NCBI GenBank assembly: GCA_002346545.1
Contig: DEAA01000013.1
Coordinates: forward strand, 45,181-109,180
DNA length: 64,000 nucleotides
Direction: 5' to 3'
Origin: Acidobacteria bacterium UBA2994
GTDB lineage: Bacteria > Acidobacteriota > Vicinamibacteria > Vicinamibacterales > UBA8438
Shown here: piece by piece, positions 39,306 through 47,253 of the stretch
Position numbering within the stretch: position 1 is the stretch's first letter
Layout of the letters: each line of letters starts with the position of its first letter
Made by a program: the position numbers and the translations under genes
Notes under the pieces: model-generated
The model's database searches: none
What the model was told of the DNA's origin: nothing
What the model saw: the letters and a program-made list of their open reading frames with translations, nothing else

Positions 39306-39468
39306 GTCTGAAGCACGAGGTGCCCAACATCACACGGGTTCCTCTGAACACTCGACCCACTGGGAACGGTACGGCAACGCCGGTGAAGGCTGGCGACGGA
39401 CGCCGACCAGGTGGGTGTTTGTCGGCCACGATGCGCGACCGATGCCCGCCAGTGAAAGGTTAACGACC

Positions 39469-41565
39469 GTGATTAGCGACCTGACGACGATCCGCAATAT
39501 CGGGGTCTCCGCGCACATCGATAGTGGAAAGACGACCCTCAGCGAGCGCATCCTCTACTACACCGACCGGGTGCACGCCATTCACGACGTGAAGGGCAAG
39601 GATGGGGTCGGCGCCAAGATGGACTCGATGGAGCTTGAGAAGGAGCGCGGCATCACCATCGCGAGCGCTGCCACGCATACCTCGTGGCAGGACCATCACA
39701 TCAACATCATCGACACACCGGGCCACGTCGACTTCACCATCGAGGTGGAGCGGAGCTTGCGGGTGCTCGACGGCGCCGTGCTGGTGCTGTGCTCGGTGGC
39801 CGGCGTGCAGAGCCAGTCGTTCACCGTCGACCGCCAGATGAACCGGTACGCGGTGCCGCGGGTCGCGTTCGTCAACAAGTGCGACCGTGTCGGCGCAGAT
39901 CCGGTTCGCGTCCGCGATGCGTTGCGGGAGAAGCTCGGCCACAACGCCGTGTTGCTGCAGCTGCCGATCGGGCTCGAGGAGGACTTTGCCGGTGTGATCG
40001 ACCTGGTCCGGATGAAGGCCTATTACTTCGAGGGCGAATTCGGCGAGACAGTGGTCGAACGGGAGATTCCGGGCGCGCTCACGGCTGATGCCGAGAGCTA
40101 CCGCGAGGAGATGCTCGACGCGGTGTCGATGTTCTCAGACGAGTTGATGGAGGCGGTGCTCGAGGGTGAGGTCACCGAGGATCTGGTGCACAAGGCGGTG
40201 CGCGAGGGGACCCTTTCGCTGCAGCTCACACCGGTGCTGCTGGGGTCGGCCTACAAGAACAAAGGTGTGCAGAAGTTGCTGGACGCCGTCGTGGCGTACC
40301 TCCCGGACCCGACCAACATCTCGAACGACGCGATCGACCTCGACGCCGAGGACGAGGCCAAGGTCGGGCTCGAGCCGGACCCGGAGAAACCGGCCGTGGC
40401 GCTGGCGTTCAAGCTGGAGGACGGACGCTACGGACAGCTCACCTACATGCGTGTCTACCAGGGTCACCTGACCAAGGACACCGTCATCACCAACAGCCGA
40501 AGCGGCAAGAAGACCAAGGTTGGGCGCCTGGTGCGCATGCACGCCGATGAGATGGAAGACATCACCGAAGCTGGCCCTGGCGATATCGTGGCGATCTTCG
40601 GGCTCGACTGCCATTCGGGCGACACGTTCACCGACGGCGCGGTGAACGTCAGCATGACGTCCATCCACGTGCCGGCGCCGGTGATCTCGCTGTCGGTGAC
40701 TCCGGCCGACAACAAGTCGCAGACGAATCTGACCAAGGCGCTGCAGCGGTTCACCAAGGAGGATCCGACATTCCGAGCCGGGGCCGACCCCGAATCGGGG
40801 GAGACGGTCATCCACGGGATGGGCGAGCTGCAGCTCGACGTCTACATCGAGCGGATGCGTCGCGAGTATCAGGTGGAAGTGGAGGTGTCGCCTCCGCAGG
40901 TTGCCTACCGCGAGACGATCAGCCGGCGGGTCGACTTCGACTACACCCACAAGAAGCAGACGGGTGGGTCGGGGCAGTATGGGCGTGTGGTGGGCTACAT
41001 CGAGCCGCACACCGAGGCCGCATTCGAGTTCGTGGACGAGATCAAGGGCGGCGTGATTCCCCGACAGTTCATCCCGGCGGTGGAGAAGGGGCTGAAGTCG
41101 ATGCTGGCCAAGGGCCGGAAGCTCGGCGCACCGGTGGTGAACGTCCGGGCGGTGGTCAACGACGGGAATCACCACTCGGTCGACTCGTCCGATGTGGCGT
41201 TCCAGGAGGCGGCGCGCGGCGCCTGGCGCGAGGCCTACGACAGGGGCGCGCCGAAGGTGCTCGAGCCGATCATGCGGGTAGCGGTCGAAGCGCCCTCGGA
41301 GCACGCGGGGAACGTGCTGACCACGATCATGCAGCGCCGAGGTACCGTGATCGGCCAGCAGGAAGTGGGCGGCATGACCATCACCGAATCGGAGGTGCCG
41401 CTGGCCGAGATGTTCGGCTACGCGACCACGCTGCGGTCGGCGACGCAGGGCAAGGCGGACTTTACGATGGAGTTCTCCCGCTATCTGCCAGTCCCGGGAG
41501 CGGTTCAGGCCGAGCTGATCGAGGCCAAGGCGGCCGCCGACAAGGAGAAGGCGCGTGCGAGCTAG
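39469..41565 (+). CDS. Elongation factor G, mitochondrial EF-G1/spdEFG1-like
   Basis: A 698-residue translocase with the order G domain, domain II, III, IV, V. The P-loop reads AHIDSGKTT, with Ser where most bacterial EF-G have Ala, as in mitochondrial EF-G1 and the spd-type bacterial EF-Gs. Other GTP motifs are DTPGHVDFT and NKCDRVGAD. Domain IV contains [13 protein letters not shown] and domain V ends with [19 protein letters not shown]. The start at GTG 39469 is chosen for the AAAGG nine to twelve bases upstream and because the N-terminus then matches mitochondrial homologues. No rpsL, rpsG or tuf genes are adjacent, so it is outside the str operon. Which of the two known EF-G jobs it does is not determined here. 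Confidence 0.92.
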
Positions 41566-41653
41566 TGCCGAGGTGATTCAGCTCGATGCGGTGCGACCGC
41601 TTCATCAACGACGTGACCGGACACCCCGGTCGAGGGGGCAGGAGGCGCCCAGC

Positions 41654-42943
41654 ATGCAGCTTGATCAGGTCAACGAGAACAGCCCACTGCGCATTCTGGA
41701 GCGTTGCTGCCAGGAGGGCCTCGGAGAGGGCGAGCTCGGGGTGGTGATGGCGCGGGCCGGTGTTGGCAAGACCGCGTTCCTGGTGCAGATCGGGCTCGAT
41801 CACGCGCTACGGGGCCACTCGGTCCTGCATGTGGCGCTAGGCCAGGACCTCGAGCATGTGCGGTCGTGGTACGACGCGCTATTCGAGGATCTGGCCGACA
41901 CCACGGCACTCGACGACCGAGATGCCGTGCGTGCCGGCGTCGACACCCACCGCATCATCCAGGCGTATTCCGACGCGTCATTTCCCCACGAACGCCTCGA
42001 CGACCTGGTGGCGCTCTATGGACAGACCGGATTCAAACCGGATGTGATCATGGTCGACGGGCTGGACTGGGAGGGAGGCGGGGTTGTGGAGCGGGCGGCC
42101 GAGCTCGGCGCCCTGAAGCAGATCGCCCGCCGCCTTGGCGCTGTCCTGTGGATTGCGGCCCAGACGCATCGCGACCAGACACCGGCGCATCCGACGCTGG
42201 TGCCTCCTCCGTGTGCGCAATACGAGGCGCTGATCAACCTGGCCATCTTTCTCGAGCCGGAGGGCACCCACGTGGAGGTCAGGCTGCTGAAGGATCATCT
42301 CCGGGACGCCACCGCCGAGACGCATCTTCAACTGCATCCGGACACGATGCGGTTGGTGCGTGACGAGACGGCGACCGGCGTCGTGCGGCTGCCGGCCAGC
42401 GCCTACACGCTGTTGTCTGGCGGGGCCCGTGGCGCCGAGACCATCTTCGGCGAGACCGCTGAGCGATTCGGGGCGGGCGAGACAACCTTCTCGTTCGCCG
42501 GCCGCGACACCGAGCGGCAGCGCGGGCTGGTCGAACTGACGCCCACCGAGCTGCAGCGCGGCGCGGTGAGCGAGGCCTACATCACTGCGCAGCTGCATCG
42601 CTCGTTCCCCGAGACGCCCGCTTTCCAGACCCTCTTGCAATCGATCTGGCATCAGGTCGCGACCGCTGGCGAAGTGTTCGTCGTGGGCGAGGTGCTCGAG
42701 GACGACACCGTCAAGGGCGGCACCGGGTGGGGGGCCGAGCTGGCCAAGCACCTGCGAAAGCGCCTATTCGTGTTCGATCAGAAGCGGGAGCAGTGGTTGA
42801 CCTGGGGTGACGGCACCTGGGCGCCAGTCGACCCGCCGTGCATTGAGCGCACCCGATTCACTGGGACCGGGACGCGTTTTCTGAGTGACGCGGGGCGCCA
42901 GGCGATCGAAGATCTCTTTGAGCGGTCATTCGGCAACCGGTAG
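41654..42943 (+). CDS. RecA-like ATPase fused to a SLOG-like nucleotide-binding domain
   Basis: The protein has 429 residues. The ATG at 41654 follows AGGAGG by eight bases; in-frame sequence back to 41555 is not needed. Residues 1-240 are a RecA/DnaB-type ATPase, with Walker A ARAGVGKTA at 33-41, Walker B VIMVDGL at 131-137, and a conserved WIAAQTHRD after the next strand. Residues 255-428 look like a SLOG/DprA-like Rossmann domain, with VFVVGEV at 341-347, GGTGWG at 355-360, LFVFDQKREQW at 371-381 and FTGTGTRFL at 402-410. Such domains bind nucleotides or ligands such as NAD or ADP-ribose derivatives. I do not know a named family with this architecture. It lies 88 bases after EF-G and nine bases before a propeller gene. 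Confidence 0.7.
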   Translation: MQLDQVNENSPLRILERCCQEGLGEGELGVVMARAGVGKTAFLVQIGLDHALRGHSVLHVALGQDLEHVRSWYDALFEDLADTTALDDRDAVRAGVDTHRIIQAYSDASFPHERLDDLVALYGQTGFKPDVIMVDGLDWEGGGVVERAAELGALKQIARRLGAVLWIAAQTHRDQTPAHPTLVPPPCAQYEALINLAIFLEPEGTHVEVRLLKDHLRDATAETHLQLHPDTMRLVRDETATGVVRLPASAYTLLSGGARGAETIFGETAERFGAGETTFSFAGRDTERQRGLVELTPTELQRGAVSEAYITAQLHRSFPETPAFQTLLQSIWHQVATAGEVFVVGEVLEDDTVKGGTGWGAELAKHLRKRLFVFDQKREQWLTWGDGTWAPVDPPCIERTRFTGTGTRFLSDAGRQAIEDLFERSFGNR

Positions 42944-44293: not shown

Positions 44294-45793
44294 TCAGGTC
44301 CTCGTTCTTGTCGCCCGCACTAGTGGTGGCAGGACCACTAACGCTAGGGCCAATCCCAGTAGGGCCGCCGAGAGCGGGCGGGTCAAGAACACGGTGGGAT
44401 CGCCGTCGGCGATGGCCAGTGCCCGGCGTGTGTACTGTTCGAGTAGTGGTCCGAGCACGGCGCCCAGCACCACCGGCGCCAGCGGAATCTCCTGGTGTCT
44501 CAGCACGACGGCCAACAGACCCAGCGCATAGACGACACCGACGTCGAAGAGGCTGCTGTTGAGCGTGTAGACGCCGACGGTAGCCAACGCGAGCACGGCC
44601 GCGTAGAGAAGGGCCGGTGGGACCTCCAGCAGGCGAACCCATAACCGGATTAGGGGCAGGTTCAGTAGTAGCAACAGGGCGTTCGACACATACAGGCTGG
44701 CGATGAGTCCCCAGACCAGCTCCGACTCCTGGCTGAAGAGCAGCGGGCCGGGCTGCAGGCCGTACATCTGGAACGCGGCCAGCATGACGGCGGTGGTGCC
44801 AGAGCCGGGCACGCCGAGCGCGAGCAGTGGCACCAGGCTACCCCCGGCGCTGGCGTTGTTGGCGGCTTCTGGTCCGGCGACCCCTTCGATGGCACCCTCG
44901 CCGAACTCCTCCGGCGTCTTCGATACCCGTCGCTCGACGTCATACGAGAGGAAGCTGGCCACCGTGGCGCCAGCGCCTGGCAGTACCCCGGTGAAGAAGC
45001 CGATGAGCGTCCCGCGGCCCCAGGCAGGCATCGACCGACGCCACTCCGATGGGGTCAGCCGCGCCGGCCCGTCGAGACGTGTCACGTTCGTAGGTGCGTC
45101 CAGTCGGGTGGCCGCATGCCAGAAGACCTCGCCCACCGCGAAGAGGCCCACGGTGACCAGCACGACATTCAGGCCCCCGAGCAGACCGGGCATACCCATG
45201 GAGAAACGCGCTTGTCCGGTTTGCACGTCGATGCCGACGGTGCCGAGGGCCAGGCCCACGAAGATGGCCAGTAGCCCGCGTGCTGGGTTGGCCCCGGCCA
45301 GACCTGCCACACTGGTGAGGGCTAGCACCATAAGCGCCGCGTAGTCGGCTGGTCCGAATCCGAGCGAGAGCTCGACCAGTGGCGGCGCCAGCAGCATCAG
45401 CATTACGGTGGCGAACGTGCCGGCCACGAATGACCCGATGGCGGCCGTGGCGAGCGCGGCACCGGCGCGACCACGACGGGTCATGGCGTAGCCGTCGACT
45501 GCGGTCATGACGCTCGACGTCTCGCCAGGCATTCGCACCAGGATGGACGTGGTCGATCCGCCATACATCGCGCCGTAGTAGATGCCGCCGAAGAGAATGA
45601 ACGTGCCGACCGGATCCATCCCGAAGGTGAGGGGAAGGAGCAGCGAGATGGTCAGCGCCGGCCCGAGACCTGGTAGCACACCGATCGCGGTGCCTACGGT
45701 GACTCCGACCGCGCCGAGCAGGAGGTTGGTGGGGACCAGGGCCGACGCGAACCCGGCGCCCAGCTGAGGGAGTAGGTAGCTCAGGCTGGACAT
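44294..45793 (-). CDS. tctA: TctA: tripartite tricarboxylate transporter, large permease subunit
   Basis: A 499-residue membrane protein with about twelve helices and the TctA signature GVLPGLGPALTISLLLPLTF (first repeat) and GFFTGVLPGAGATVASFLSY (second repeat). It carries solute across the membrane, probably driven by an ion gradient. It is the last gene of a tctCBA operon. Its ATG shares one base with the tctB stop (TGATG). Confidence 0.95.
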   Translation of the reverse strand: MSSLSYLLPQLGAGFASALVPTNLLLGAVGVTVGTAIGVLPGLGPALTISLLLPLTFGMDPVGTFILFGGIYYGAMYGGSTTSILVRMPGETSSVMTAVDGYAMTRRGRAGAALATAAIGSFVAGTFATVMLMLLAPPLVELSLGFGPADYAALMVLALTSVAGLAGANPARGLLAIFVGLALGTVGIDVQTGQARFSMGMPGLLGGLNVVLVTVGLFAVGEVFWHAATRLDAPTNVTRLDGPARLTPSEWRRSMPAWGRGTLIGFFTGVLPGAGATVASFLSYDVERRVSKTPEEFGEGAIEGVAGPEAANNASAGGSLVPLLALGVPGSGTTAVMLAAFQMYGLQPGPLLFSQESELVWGLIASLYVSNALLLLLNLPLIRLWVRLLEVPPALLYAAVLALATVGVYTLNSSLFDVGVVYALGLLAVVLRHQEIPLAPVVLGAVLGPLLEQYTRRALAIADGDPTVFLTRPLSAALLGLALALVVLPPLVRATRTRT

Positions 45794-46215
45794 CAGCCGA
45801 GCAGACCCTGCGGTAGTTGCACGCCCAGCACGAAGGTGAGCAGGCCGTGGACGGTGGTGGCTAGTAGTGCAGCGACGACGAGGTCACGGCGCCAGCGCTG
45901 GCTGCCGAGGACGCGCGCCTGGAGCACCACGAACGGTACCGTGGCTGGAAGGAAGCCGGCCATGGGCAAGAGCGCCAGGTAGGCCAGATAGGTTGCCGCT
46001 GCGCCACCGACGCCGCGCCAGTCCAGCGGGCTGGTAGTCCGGTCGGTGGCTGCTACCCAGCCGGCACATCCCACCAGCCCGAGGCCGATGATCATCGGAA
46101 ACACCCCTGGGCCAACCGCCGCGTACTGATCCTCGGGCGTGTCAATCTGGAAGGCGGCGGCGAGGTAGGTCAGCGCGGCAGCGACCAGCAGGGCTCGGGC
46201 CAGCGGTGGACGCAT
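45793..46215 (-). CDS. tctB: TctB: tripartite tricarboxylate transporter, small subunit
   Basis: A 140-residue protein with four membrane helices, matching the size and plan of TctB (FQIDTPEDQYAAVGPGVFPMII near the N-terminus, PATVPFVVLQARVLGSQRWR in the loop). It lies between tctC (nine bases) and tctA (one-base overlap). Its identity rests on gene order and the helix plan. Confidence 0.9.
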   Translation of the reverse strand: MRPPLARALLVAAALTYLAAAFQIDTPEDQYAAVGPGVFPMIIGLGLVGCAGWVAATDRTTSPLDWRGVGGAAATYLAYLALLPMAGFLPATVPFVVLQARVLGSQRWRRDLVVAALLATTVHGLLTFVLGVQLPQGLLG

Positions 46216-46224
46216 CGGGCCACC

Positions 46225-47253
46225 CTATCGCACTAGGCCAACCGAGCGAAGGACCTGGTCGGCGGTGGCACGTTCGTCGGCGAGGAACTCGTCGAGTGGC
46301 GCGCCGCTGAGGAAGCTGTCTTCCCACTCGTTGTCGGTGAGGATCTGCTGCCAGGCCGGGCTGTCACGCATGGCGTCGAGCGCGTCGGCAAGCCAGGCGC
46401 GCGTCATCGAGTCGGTGTCGGGTGGAGCCAGGACCCCGCGCCAGTTGGCCAGCACGACGTCCAGACCGTATTCCCGGAAGGTCGGTGTTTCGCTGTCGCT
46501 GAGTCGTTCGGCGGCCGAAATGGCCAGCGGTCGCATCCGTCCCGTGTCTACGAAGCCCTTCCATTCGCCAACCCCGGACACGCCGGCCGAGACGTGGCCG
46601 CCTATCACGGCTACGGCCGCCTCGCCGCCCCCGGCGTGTGCGACGTAGTTCACGCGAGCCGGGTCCACGCCGGCCGCCAGCGCGAGCAGCCCCACCAGCA
46701 TGTGGTCGATGCCGCCGGCCGAGCCGCCAGCCCAGCTGATTGATTCGGGTGCGGCTCGGAAGACCTCGATCAGAGCGTCCAGCGTGTCGAACGGCGAATC
46801 AGCCGGGACCGCCACCATCTCGTATTCGTTGAGCAGTCGCGCGATTGGGACCGTGTCGGCCACTGAGACCGGGCTGTTGTTGGTACGGACCGCGCCCAGC
46901 ATGACCTGCCCGAACACCATCAACGTCTGAGGGTTGCCCCGGTGGCGGCTGACGAGATCGGCCAGTCCGATGGTGCCGCCGGCGCCGCCCCGGTTGACCA
47001 CCTCCACCGGGACACCGAGTAACCCCGTGTCTCTGAGCACCTGCTGCAACTGGCGCGCAGTCTGGTCCCAGCCGCCGCCAGGGTTGGCCGGCGCAATTAC
47101 GGTGATCGGCCCATTGGGATACCCAGCCTCGGTGCGGGGAAGGGCGTTCGCGGGGGCGCTGGAGTCTGCGCTGCCACAGCCAACCGCTAGGTAGAGGCCG
47201 GTTGCGAGGAGGGTCGTGGCCAGCGTGTGGGCGCGACGAACGCCGAAGAGCAT
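46225..47253 (-). CDS. tctC: TctC: solute-binding lipoprotein of the tripartite tricarboxylate transporter
   Basis: A 342-residue protein. The lipobox LAVGC near residue 26 suggests a lipid anchor, which is less usual than a free periplasmic form. The Bug/TctC fold shows YPNGPITVIAPANPGGGWDQTARQ in the first lobe and VNRGGAGGTIGLADLVSRH with the ligand-binding Gly-rich loop. The citrate or tricarboxylate specificity is a family default and could be another carboxylate. First gene of the operon, divergent from the DUF1295 gene. Confidence 0.92.
   Translation of the reverse strand: MLFGVRRAHTLATTLLATGLYLAVGCGSADSSAPANALPRTEAGYPNGPITVIAPANPGGGWDQTARQLQQVLRDTGLLGVPVEVVNRGGAGGTIGLADLVSRHRGNPQTLMVFGQVMLGAVRTNNSPVSVADTVPIARLLNEYEMVAVPADSPFDTLDALIEVFRAAPESISWAGGSAGGIDHMLVGLLALAAGVDPARVNYVAHAGGGEAAVAVIGGHVSAGVSGVGEWKGFVDTGRMRPLAISAAERLSDSETPTFREYGLDVVLANWRGVLAPPDTDSMTRAWLADALDAMRDSPAWQQILTDNEWEDSFLSGAPLDEFLADERATADQVLRSVGLVR

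Follow-up and report, generated by a model that had tools for sequence, protein, structure and literature searches.

We identified, in a 64,000-nucleotide stretch of Acidobacteria bacterium UBA2994 (contig DEAA01000013.1 of assembly GCA_002346545.1, positions 45,181 to 109,180 of the forward strand; hereafter the window), a gene that encodes a RecA-fold ATPase fused to a SLOG domain and follows a gene for elongation factor G (EF-G) on the plus strand. In one sample of the phylum, ATPases of this kind are paired almost constantly with one class of EF-G; the fused proteins lack the catalytic glutamate, and the trees of the two halves fit a single fusion. We tentatively favor a reading in which the ATPase-SLOG protein is a regulatory, translation-linked partner of an alternative EF-G of the spdEFG1 type.

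The stop-free open reading frame (41654-42943, plus strand) encodes 429 amino acids and is a conserved gene. Its conservation is beyond chance: a protein search recovered 1,185 relatives at E ≤ 0.001 (7,995 scored), and the 120 relatives listed, of 398-504 residues, cover 92-100% of the query. The search admitted proteins of approximately 236-750 residues, and some of the 1,185 may therefore be without the SLOG part. Acidobacteria and Myxococcota are among the source names of the full-length relatives. Counts of residue invariance are based on 70 aligned fused relatives; the first methionine is invariant in all of them, which makes an alternative reading of 462 amino acids from GTG 41555 less likely. 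The AlphaFold2 model of the 429-residue protein has a mean predicted local distance difference test (pLDDT) score of 89.2. A first-pass annotation had described the gene product as a RecA-like ATPase joined to a SLOG-like domain, encoded behind EF-G, in an order matching no named family. Both descriptions held up: the Walker and SLOG residues are conserved as listed below, the EF-G gene ends 88 nucleotides upstream of the ATG on the same strand, and no model above its curated cut-off in Pfam, NCBIfam, PHROGs or PADLOC covers the fused architecture. The features, in window coordinates, are:

39415..41565, plus strand: EF-G gene, predicted spdEFG1 / mitochondrial-EFG1 type; exact start unsettled, GTG 39415 giving the longest reading
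41640..41645, plus strand: AGGAGG ribosome-binding site of the ATPase-SLOG gene, 8 nucleotides before the ATG
41654..42943, plus strand: RecA-fold ATPase and SLOG fusion, 429 amino acids (open reading frame, relatives, alignment, model)
41684..42370, plus strand: DnaB/KaiC-like RecA-fold ATPase domain, residues 11-239
41750..41773, plus strand: Walker A ARAGVGKT, residues 33-40 (K39 in 70 of 70)
41840..41842, plus strand: Gly residue 63, opposite the catalytic Glu E227 of T4 gp41 (ungapped alignment)
42044..42058, plus strand: Walker B strand, residues 131-135, with Asp 135 (D in 69 of 70; strand in the model)
42398..42934, plus strand: SLOG domain, YspA-like, residues 249-427 (hhalign to YAcAr, phrog_768, model)
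42416..42439, plus strand: SLOG motif SGGARGAE (GxD/E), residues 255-262 (G256, G260 and E262 invariant in 70)
42710..42742, plus strand: SLOG loop VKGGTGWGAEL, residues 353-363 (G355, G356, T357, G358, W359, E362 and L363 invariant in 70)
42857..42877, plus strand: FTGTGTR segment, residues 402-408 (variant forms in solo SLOG and phage relatives)

Pairing of the ATPase with one class of EF-G

The pairing was surveyed in a sample of 396 Acidobacteriota genomes, with at most four candidates scored per genome and with four weak, short matches (G274, G203, G412 and G426) counted as neither ATPase nor SLOG. The EF-G list comprised the higher-scoring matches; EF-Gs truncated at contig ends were looked up in the fetched stretches. 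The ATPase was found in 55 genomes, an EF-G match of at least 58% in 49 and both in 48, a co-occurrence with a Fisher p of 5e-53 that ignores shared descent. Of the 48 genomes that carry both genes, 43 have the ATPase on the strand of the EF-G and 26-101 nucleotides behind the EF-G match (between alignment edges). In genomes G179, G330, G380 and G417, a contig end cuts the EF-G, whose C-terminal part sits directly upstream of the ATPase. Thus, the ATPase is directly downstream of EF-G in 47 of 51 decidable genomes from 13 families, contig ends having made four others (G213, G234, G395 and G445) undecidable. One genome (G323) gave no ATPase match; its EF-G of this class lies at a contig end.

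The pairing extends to the finer scale of the window's own relatives and to the divergence of the two proteins. Among 100 related genomes, the window's own included, the fusion occurs in six (split over two contigs in G001), and the same six have an EF-G at least 83% identical to that of the window; no EF-G match reaches an E-value of 0 in the other 94, where the matches listed have at most 50% identity. Evolutionary distances of 22 EF-G/ATPase pairs were correlated in a mirror-tree comparison (r 0.92, with none of 2,000 permutations as high and species history uncorrected), which used 22 of 25 ATPase loci and excluded three that lacked a nearly complete EF-G alignment. ATPases of this kind are also found without SLOG, and these solo ATPases retain the EF-G pairing despite being only 25-43% identical to the ATPase of the window. 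Solo SLOG genes had no EF-G within about 6 kb in any of the 16 loci fetched, out of at most 66 such genomes.

The EF-G of the window matches TIGR00484 (954 bits). Its best solved relative is a mitochondrial EF-G (766 bits, vs. 678 for the best bacterial EF-G), and its switch I carries a KDG insertion of the kind reported as specific to spdEFG1 (PMC3150367). Among the 22 paired EF-Gs, KDG is found in the window and in 18 more, with RDG in L060, KEG in L059 and the region uncovered in L053. The second EF-G of the genome (48% to that of the window) is nearer to bacterial EF-G (921 vs. 599 bits for mitochondrial), as is the third (35%; 624 vs. 401 bits), which has in its P loop the glycine given as a mark of EFG II (PMC4342817). 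The EF-G of the window is thus probably of the spdEFG1/mitochondrial-EFG1 type, an assignment made from the KDG insertion and bit scores. In the published pattern, spdEFG1 is one half of a split EF-G and accompanies spdEFG2 in the absence of EFG I (PMC3150367). The genome of the window departs from that distribution: its putative spdEFG1 is a third EF-G, with an ATPase gene attached, in addition to one copy of bacterial type and one resembling EFG II. In genome G430, a second match to an spdEFG1-type EF-G, shorter and at 63%, lies at G430:C13:167088-168593.

The RecA-fold and SLOG halves of the protein

The ATPase half resembles the C-terminal domain of replicative helicases in fold and differs from them in architecture and active site. 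The 429-residue protein matches AAA_25 above the Pfam cut-off and the DnaB-like helicases of PHROGs (2.1e-15); its match to DnaB_C stays under the Pfam cut-off (15.9 of 27 bits). Fold searches with the whole model returned RecA-fold proteins among the matches listed, including the C-terminal domain of DnaB type and a RecA fold close to KaiC. SLOG structures were absent from those matches, which counts neither for nor against the SLOG assignment. The RecA fold starts after only some 10 residues, leaving no N-terminal primase-binding domain like that of DnaB. Residues 11-79 align without gaps to residues 175-243 of T4 gp41, placing Gly 63 where gp41 has E227, and none of the 70 fused proteins has a glutamate at this catalytic place. 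The missing glutamate is suggestive only as a sign that the domain binds ATP without hydrolyzing it.

These features bear on a rival possibility, a DNA helicase or recombination mediator of the DnaB/RadA kind whose only link to EF-G is a shared transcript and whose SLOG domain is a DprA-like DNA-binding part. The DnaB-like fold and PHROGs match are what such a protein would have, whereas the lack of the N-terminal domain, the DnaB_C score, the glutamate missing from 70 of 70 fused proteins and a gene partner that is EF-G rather than a replication gene make this explanation improbable. A replication-linked switch, as proposed in the first-pass annotation, likewise fits poorly with EF-G as the constant partner. 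The near-constant pairing, the in-step divergence and the absence of the hydrolytic glutamate from the fused proteins lead us to favor an ATP-binding, ATP-reading partner of EF-G over a helicase.

The C-terminal half is predicted to adopt a Rossmann-type fold. Residues 252-426 of the AlphaFold2 model follow an alternating beta-alpha order with block-mean pLDDT of 80-98, in agreement with the nucleotide-binding fold expected for residues 255-429 in the first-pass annotation. The GGxxGxD/E phosphate/nucleotide motif is present as SGGARGAE, and KGGTGWGAEL forms a second motif. On profile comparison, the domain is nearer the YspA type of SLOG than DprA. A SLOG profile of 30 rows, including ten phage pieces, aligned by hhalign with a YspA-type (YAcAr) profile at 91.6% and E 8e-7 over 81 columns. 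The YAcAr profile was built from three sequences, one further sequence (382 amino acids) having been excluded. The reversed profile (0.1%) and the ATPase profile (0.5%) served as negative controls and DprA to YAcAr as a positive control (94.1%). The result rests on the wider alignment, because a shallower profile without the phage pieces (number of effective sequences 1.95) reached only 27%. 

The first-pass annotation had compared the domain to SLOG/DprA-type proteins; the SLOG part of that comparison was borne out, and membership in DprA was rejected on the 0.3% returned by hhalign between the SLOG and DprA profiles. The failed alignment also speaks against the DNA-binding part postulated for a helicase. 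PF02481 (DprA) was matched by one of 18 relatives (E 0.0081), and a separate DprA match lies elsewhere in the genome of the window, at G000:C72. The matches to phrog_768, a family named DprA-like, count against our non-DprA assignment: it was matched by the whole protein (6.8e-4), by the SLOG part (1.1e-4) and by 18 of 19 SLOG domains. PF10686 (YAcAr) was not matched in Pfam by the 429-residue protein, by its SLOG part or by genome G000, and was matched weakly by seven of 18 relatives (best E 0.0029). Weak Pfam matches of the SLOG domains were to YAcAr, LDcluster4, DprA, cpYpsA and nucleoside deoxyribosyltransferase, five families that we regard as SLOG or nearly so, and these matches agree with the assignment. 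Unrelated families also appeared at comparable or better E-values, namely D5_N (5 of 19 SLOG domains, best 2.5e-4, and 3 of 18 in a second set) and a semialdehyde dehydrogenase domain (4 of 19 in the Pfam scan). We judged these to be chance matches, as neither their folds nor their motifs fit. Searches of solved structures with the SLOG profiles gave nothing usable.

The GxD/E motif of YpsA, a SLOG protein of Bacillus subtilis, is predicted to bind substrate (PMC6459960). A role for the window's SLOG domain as a putative sensor of nucleotide signals is plausible. SLOG families of this kind are also predicted to use nicotinamide adenine dinucleotide (NAD) (PMC7824862, PMC6459960). This prediction, together with the near-constant pairing with one EF-G class, would suit a catalytic EF-G modifier, in which the SLOG domain processes NAD or a nucleotide so that the pair tags or untags EF-G while the ATPase targets or remodels it. 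We consider this quite unlikely: of the 55 genomes in the phylum sample that have the ATPase, 53 show a match spanning the ATPase half without the SLOG half, and SLOG catalysis cannot then be the core role. For the same reason, the SLOG domain is better viewed as a putative sensor added in one lineage than as a core component.

Origin of the fusion and genomic context

The phylogenies of the two halves are consistent with a single fusion that then spread. Fused and solo forms separate cleanly in the tree of the ATPase half (100/100; 35 of the 70 fused proteins and 24 of the best 120 solo ATPases, sampled without the 20 solo-ATPase loci) and in that of the SLOG half (97/97; 24 of the 70 fused proteins and 36 solo SLOG domains, with two long branches, L080 and L083). 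The solo ATPase pairs with EF-G and the solo SLOG does not, which suggests that the EF-G and ATPase genes are the older unit, onto which SLOG was joined, apparently once. The SLOG domain also occurs on its own: 6,483 relatives scored at E ≤ 0.001 (8,000 scored), the 120 listed having 181-206 residues, and 30 further genomes among the 100 relatives have matches that fall wholly or mostly in the SLOG half.

The surroundings of the pair yielded one further candidate partner. In the sister genus, an ABC-F gene sits directly behind EF-G and ATPase-SLOG in all four loci (L064 7398-9008, L065 7405-9012, L066 4372-5982 and L067 792-2400); its best NCBIfam model is PRK15064 (ABC-F family ATPase; 638 bits, under the cut-off of 762). 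ABC-F proteins are ribosome-associated. The window has a PQQ-type protein at this place. A survey with rough home-made gene calls found no third constant partner at 20 solo-ATPase loci, and ABC-F was seen only in the sister genus. The largest other cluster, in 5 of the 20 loci, was a wrong-strand reading over EF-G, and two more clusters occurred in three loci each. Close downstream in the window (44294-47253, minus strand) lie ordinary TctA, TctB and TctC genes of a tripartite tricarboxylate transporter.

SLOG domains occur in nucleotide-signaling defense systems (PMC6459960), and the first-pass annotation had raised the idea of a new defense module. Neither the locus nor the mobile-element records gave support for it. 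PADLOC matched none of 10 proteins (the ATPase-SLOG protein and nine around it), none of 72,556 plasmid records matched, and no phage record of 50,697 spans 80% of the 429-residue protein. With the stable pairing to a translation factor, these results make a defense role highly unlikely. Two peptide patterns found no relative in viral contigs. Divergent SLOG relatives were found in 23 of the 50,697 phage records, and the 20 listed fall in residues 233-429. The same SLOG type is found at 32% identity in Klebsiella phage Pylas (MH899585.1; L152 3001-3528), within a very large polypeptide whose annotation is virion RNA polymerase, and a similar piece is present in a giant crAss-like phage protein (L153). 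In Caulobacter phage Cr30 (L155 2986-3528), a solo SLOG gene stands between two genes with the annotation recombination endonuclease and a peptide deformylase gene.

A putative switch on an alternative EF-G

In the mechanism that we tentatively favor, the EF-G and ATPase genes form a conserved two-gene unit, and the RecA-fold domain most likely binds ATP but does not hydrolyze it efficiently. The ATPase might assemble in the manner of other RecA-fold rings and could, in one of its nucleotide states, engage EF-G or the EF-G-bound ribosome, so that the second translocase would be switched on or off with the energy state of the cell. In the fused lineage, the SLOG domain would bind a nucleotide or an NAD/ADP-ribose-like ligand and so supply a second input. 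A working model for such a RecA-fold switch is the archaellum motor regulator ArlH (FlaH), a KaiC-like RecA-fold protein described as binding ATP without hydrolyzing it and as acting on a partner motor ATPase (PMC8978795). The likeness is drawn from that description; the partner of the window's ATPase is, by contrast, a translational GTPase, and the ATPase is fused to SLOG. On the SLOG side, the window's domain shares the GGxxGxD/E motif with the YspA type but has an extra C-terminal hairpin and GTGTR strand. Bacillus subtilis YpsA, which has the GxD/E motif and is tied to nutrient state and oxidative stress, acts on cell division, in contrast to the role proposed here, and the portion of the source drawn on here describes no ATPase part (PMC6459960).

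Several observations weigh against this regulatory role. Four genomes of two families keep the ATPase apart from such an EF-G: in G247 and G268 none was present in the stretches fetched or in the EF-G list, and in G280 and G437 it is on another contig. Genome G417 has a second ATPase copy (L163) with no EF-G in its 13-kb stretch, and the gene context covered by the analysis is that of Acidobacteriota. Position 63, read from the alignment, is Glu in 4 and Asp in 7 of the 20 solo ATPase loci, and some of these solo ATPases may hydrolyze ATP. Solo SLOG and solo ATPase genes co-occur in four genomes against about five expected; with no such excess, the fusion is no proof of an older functional bond between the halves. 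The ABC-F association is also imperfect, one of the four genes (L067) being split in two pieces and genome G000 being without a close counterpart (best 34%). Apart from these points, the neighbors of the ATPase in the two exception families (L097-L100; L049 and L102) could show a second role.

Co-transcription could also reflect a need for the same conditions, which would make the link real but indirect, with the ATPase serving some other process needed whenever the alternative EF-G is. Operon neighbors need not touch, and the four genomes with separate genes agree with this. The near-complete co-occurrence over 13 families and the correlated divergence argue for something closer, and we regard an indirect link as rather unlikely.

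We found no paper on the EF-G/ATPase pair or on the ATPase-SLOG fusion in a literature search that left most subscription journals outside its coverage; Burroughs et al. 2015 (SLOG networks) could mention the fusion. Why bacteria retain extra EF-G genes is an open question. The spdEFG1-type protein described here is an additional EF-G that has an ATPase partner of its own, and the two stay together over the phylum sample despite the divergence of the ATPase. A regulatory partnership of the kind we favor could extend to an undescribed control of elongation, possible but doubtful on present evidence, in which a RecA-fold ring for a mitochondrial-EFG1-type translocase would read ATP and, in the fused lineage, a SLOG ligand, and would thus decide when bacteria with a normal EF-G use the alternative. 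The pair offers a direct way to test ideas on conditional elongation factors and places a SLOG domain in a setting tied to translation rather than defense.
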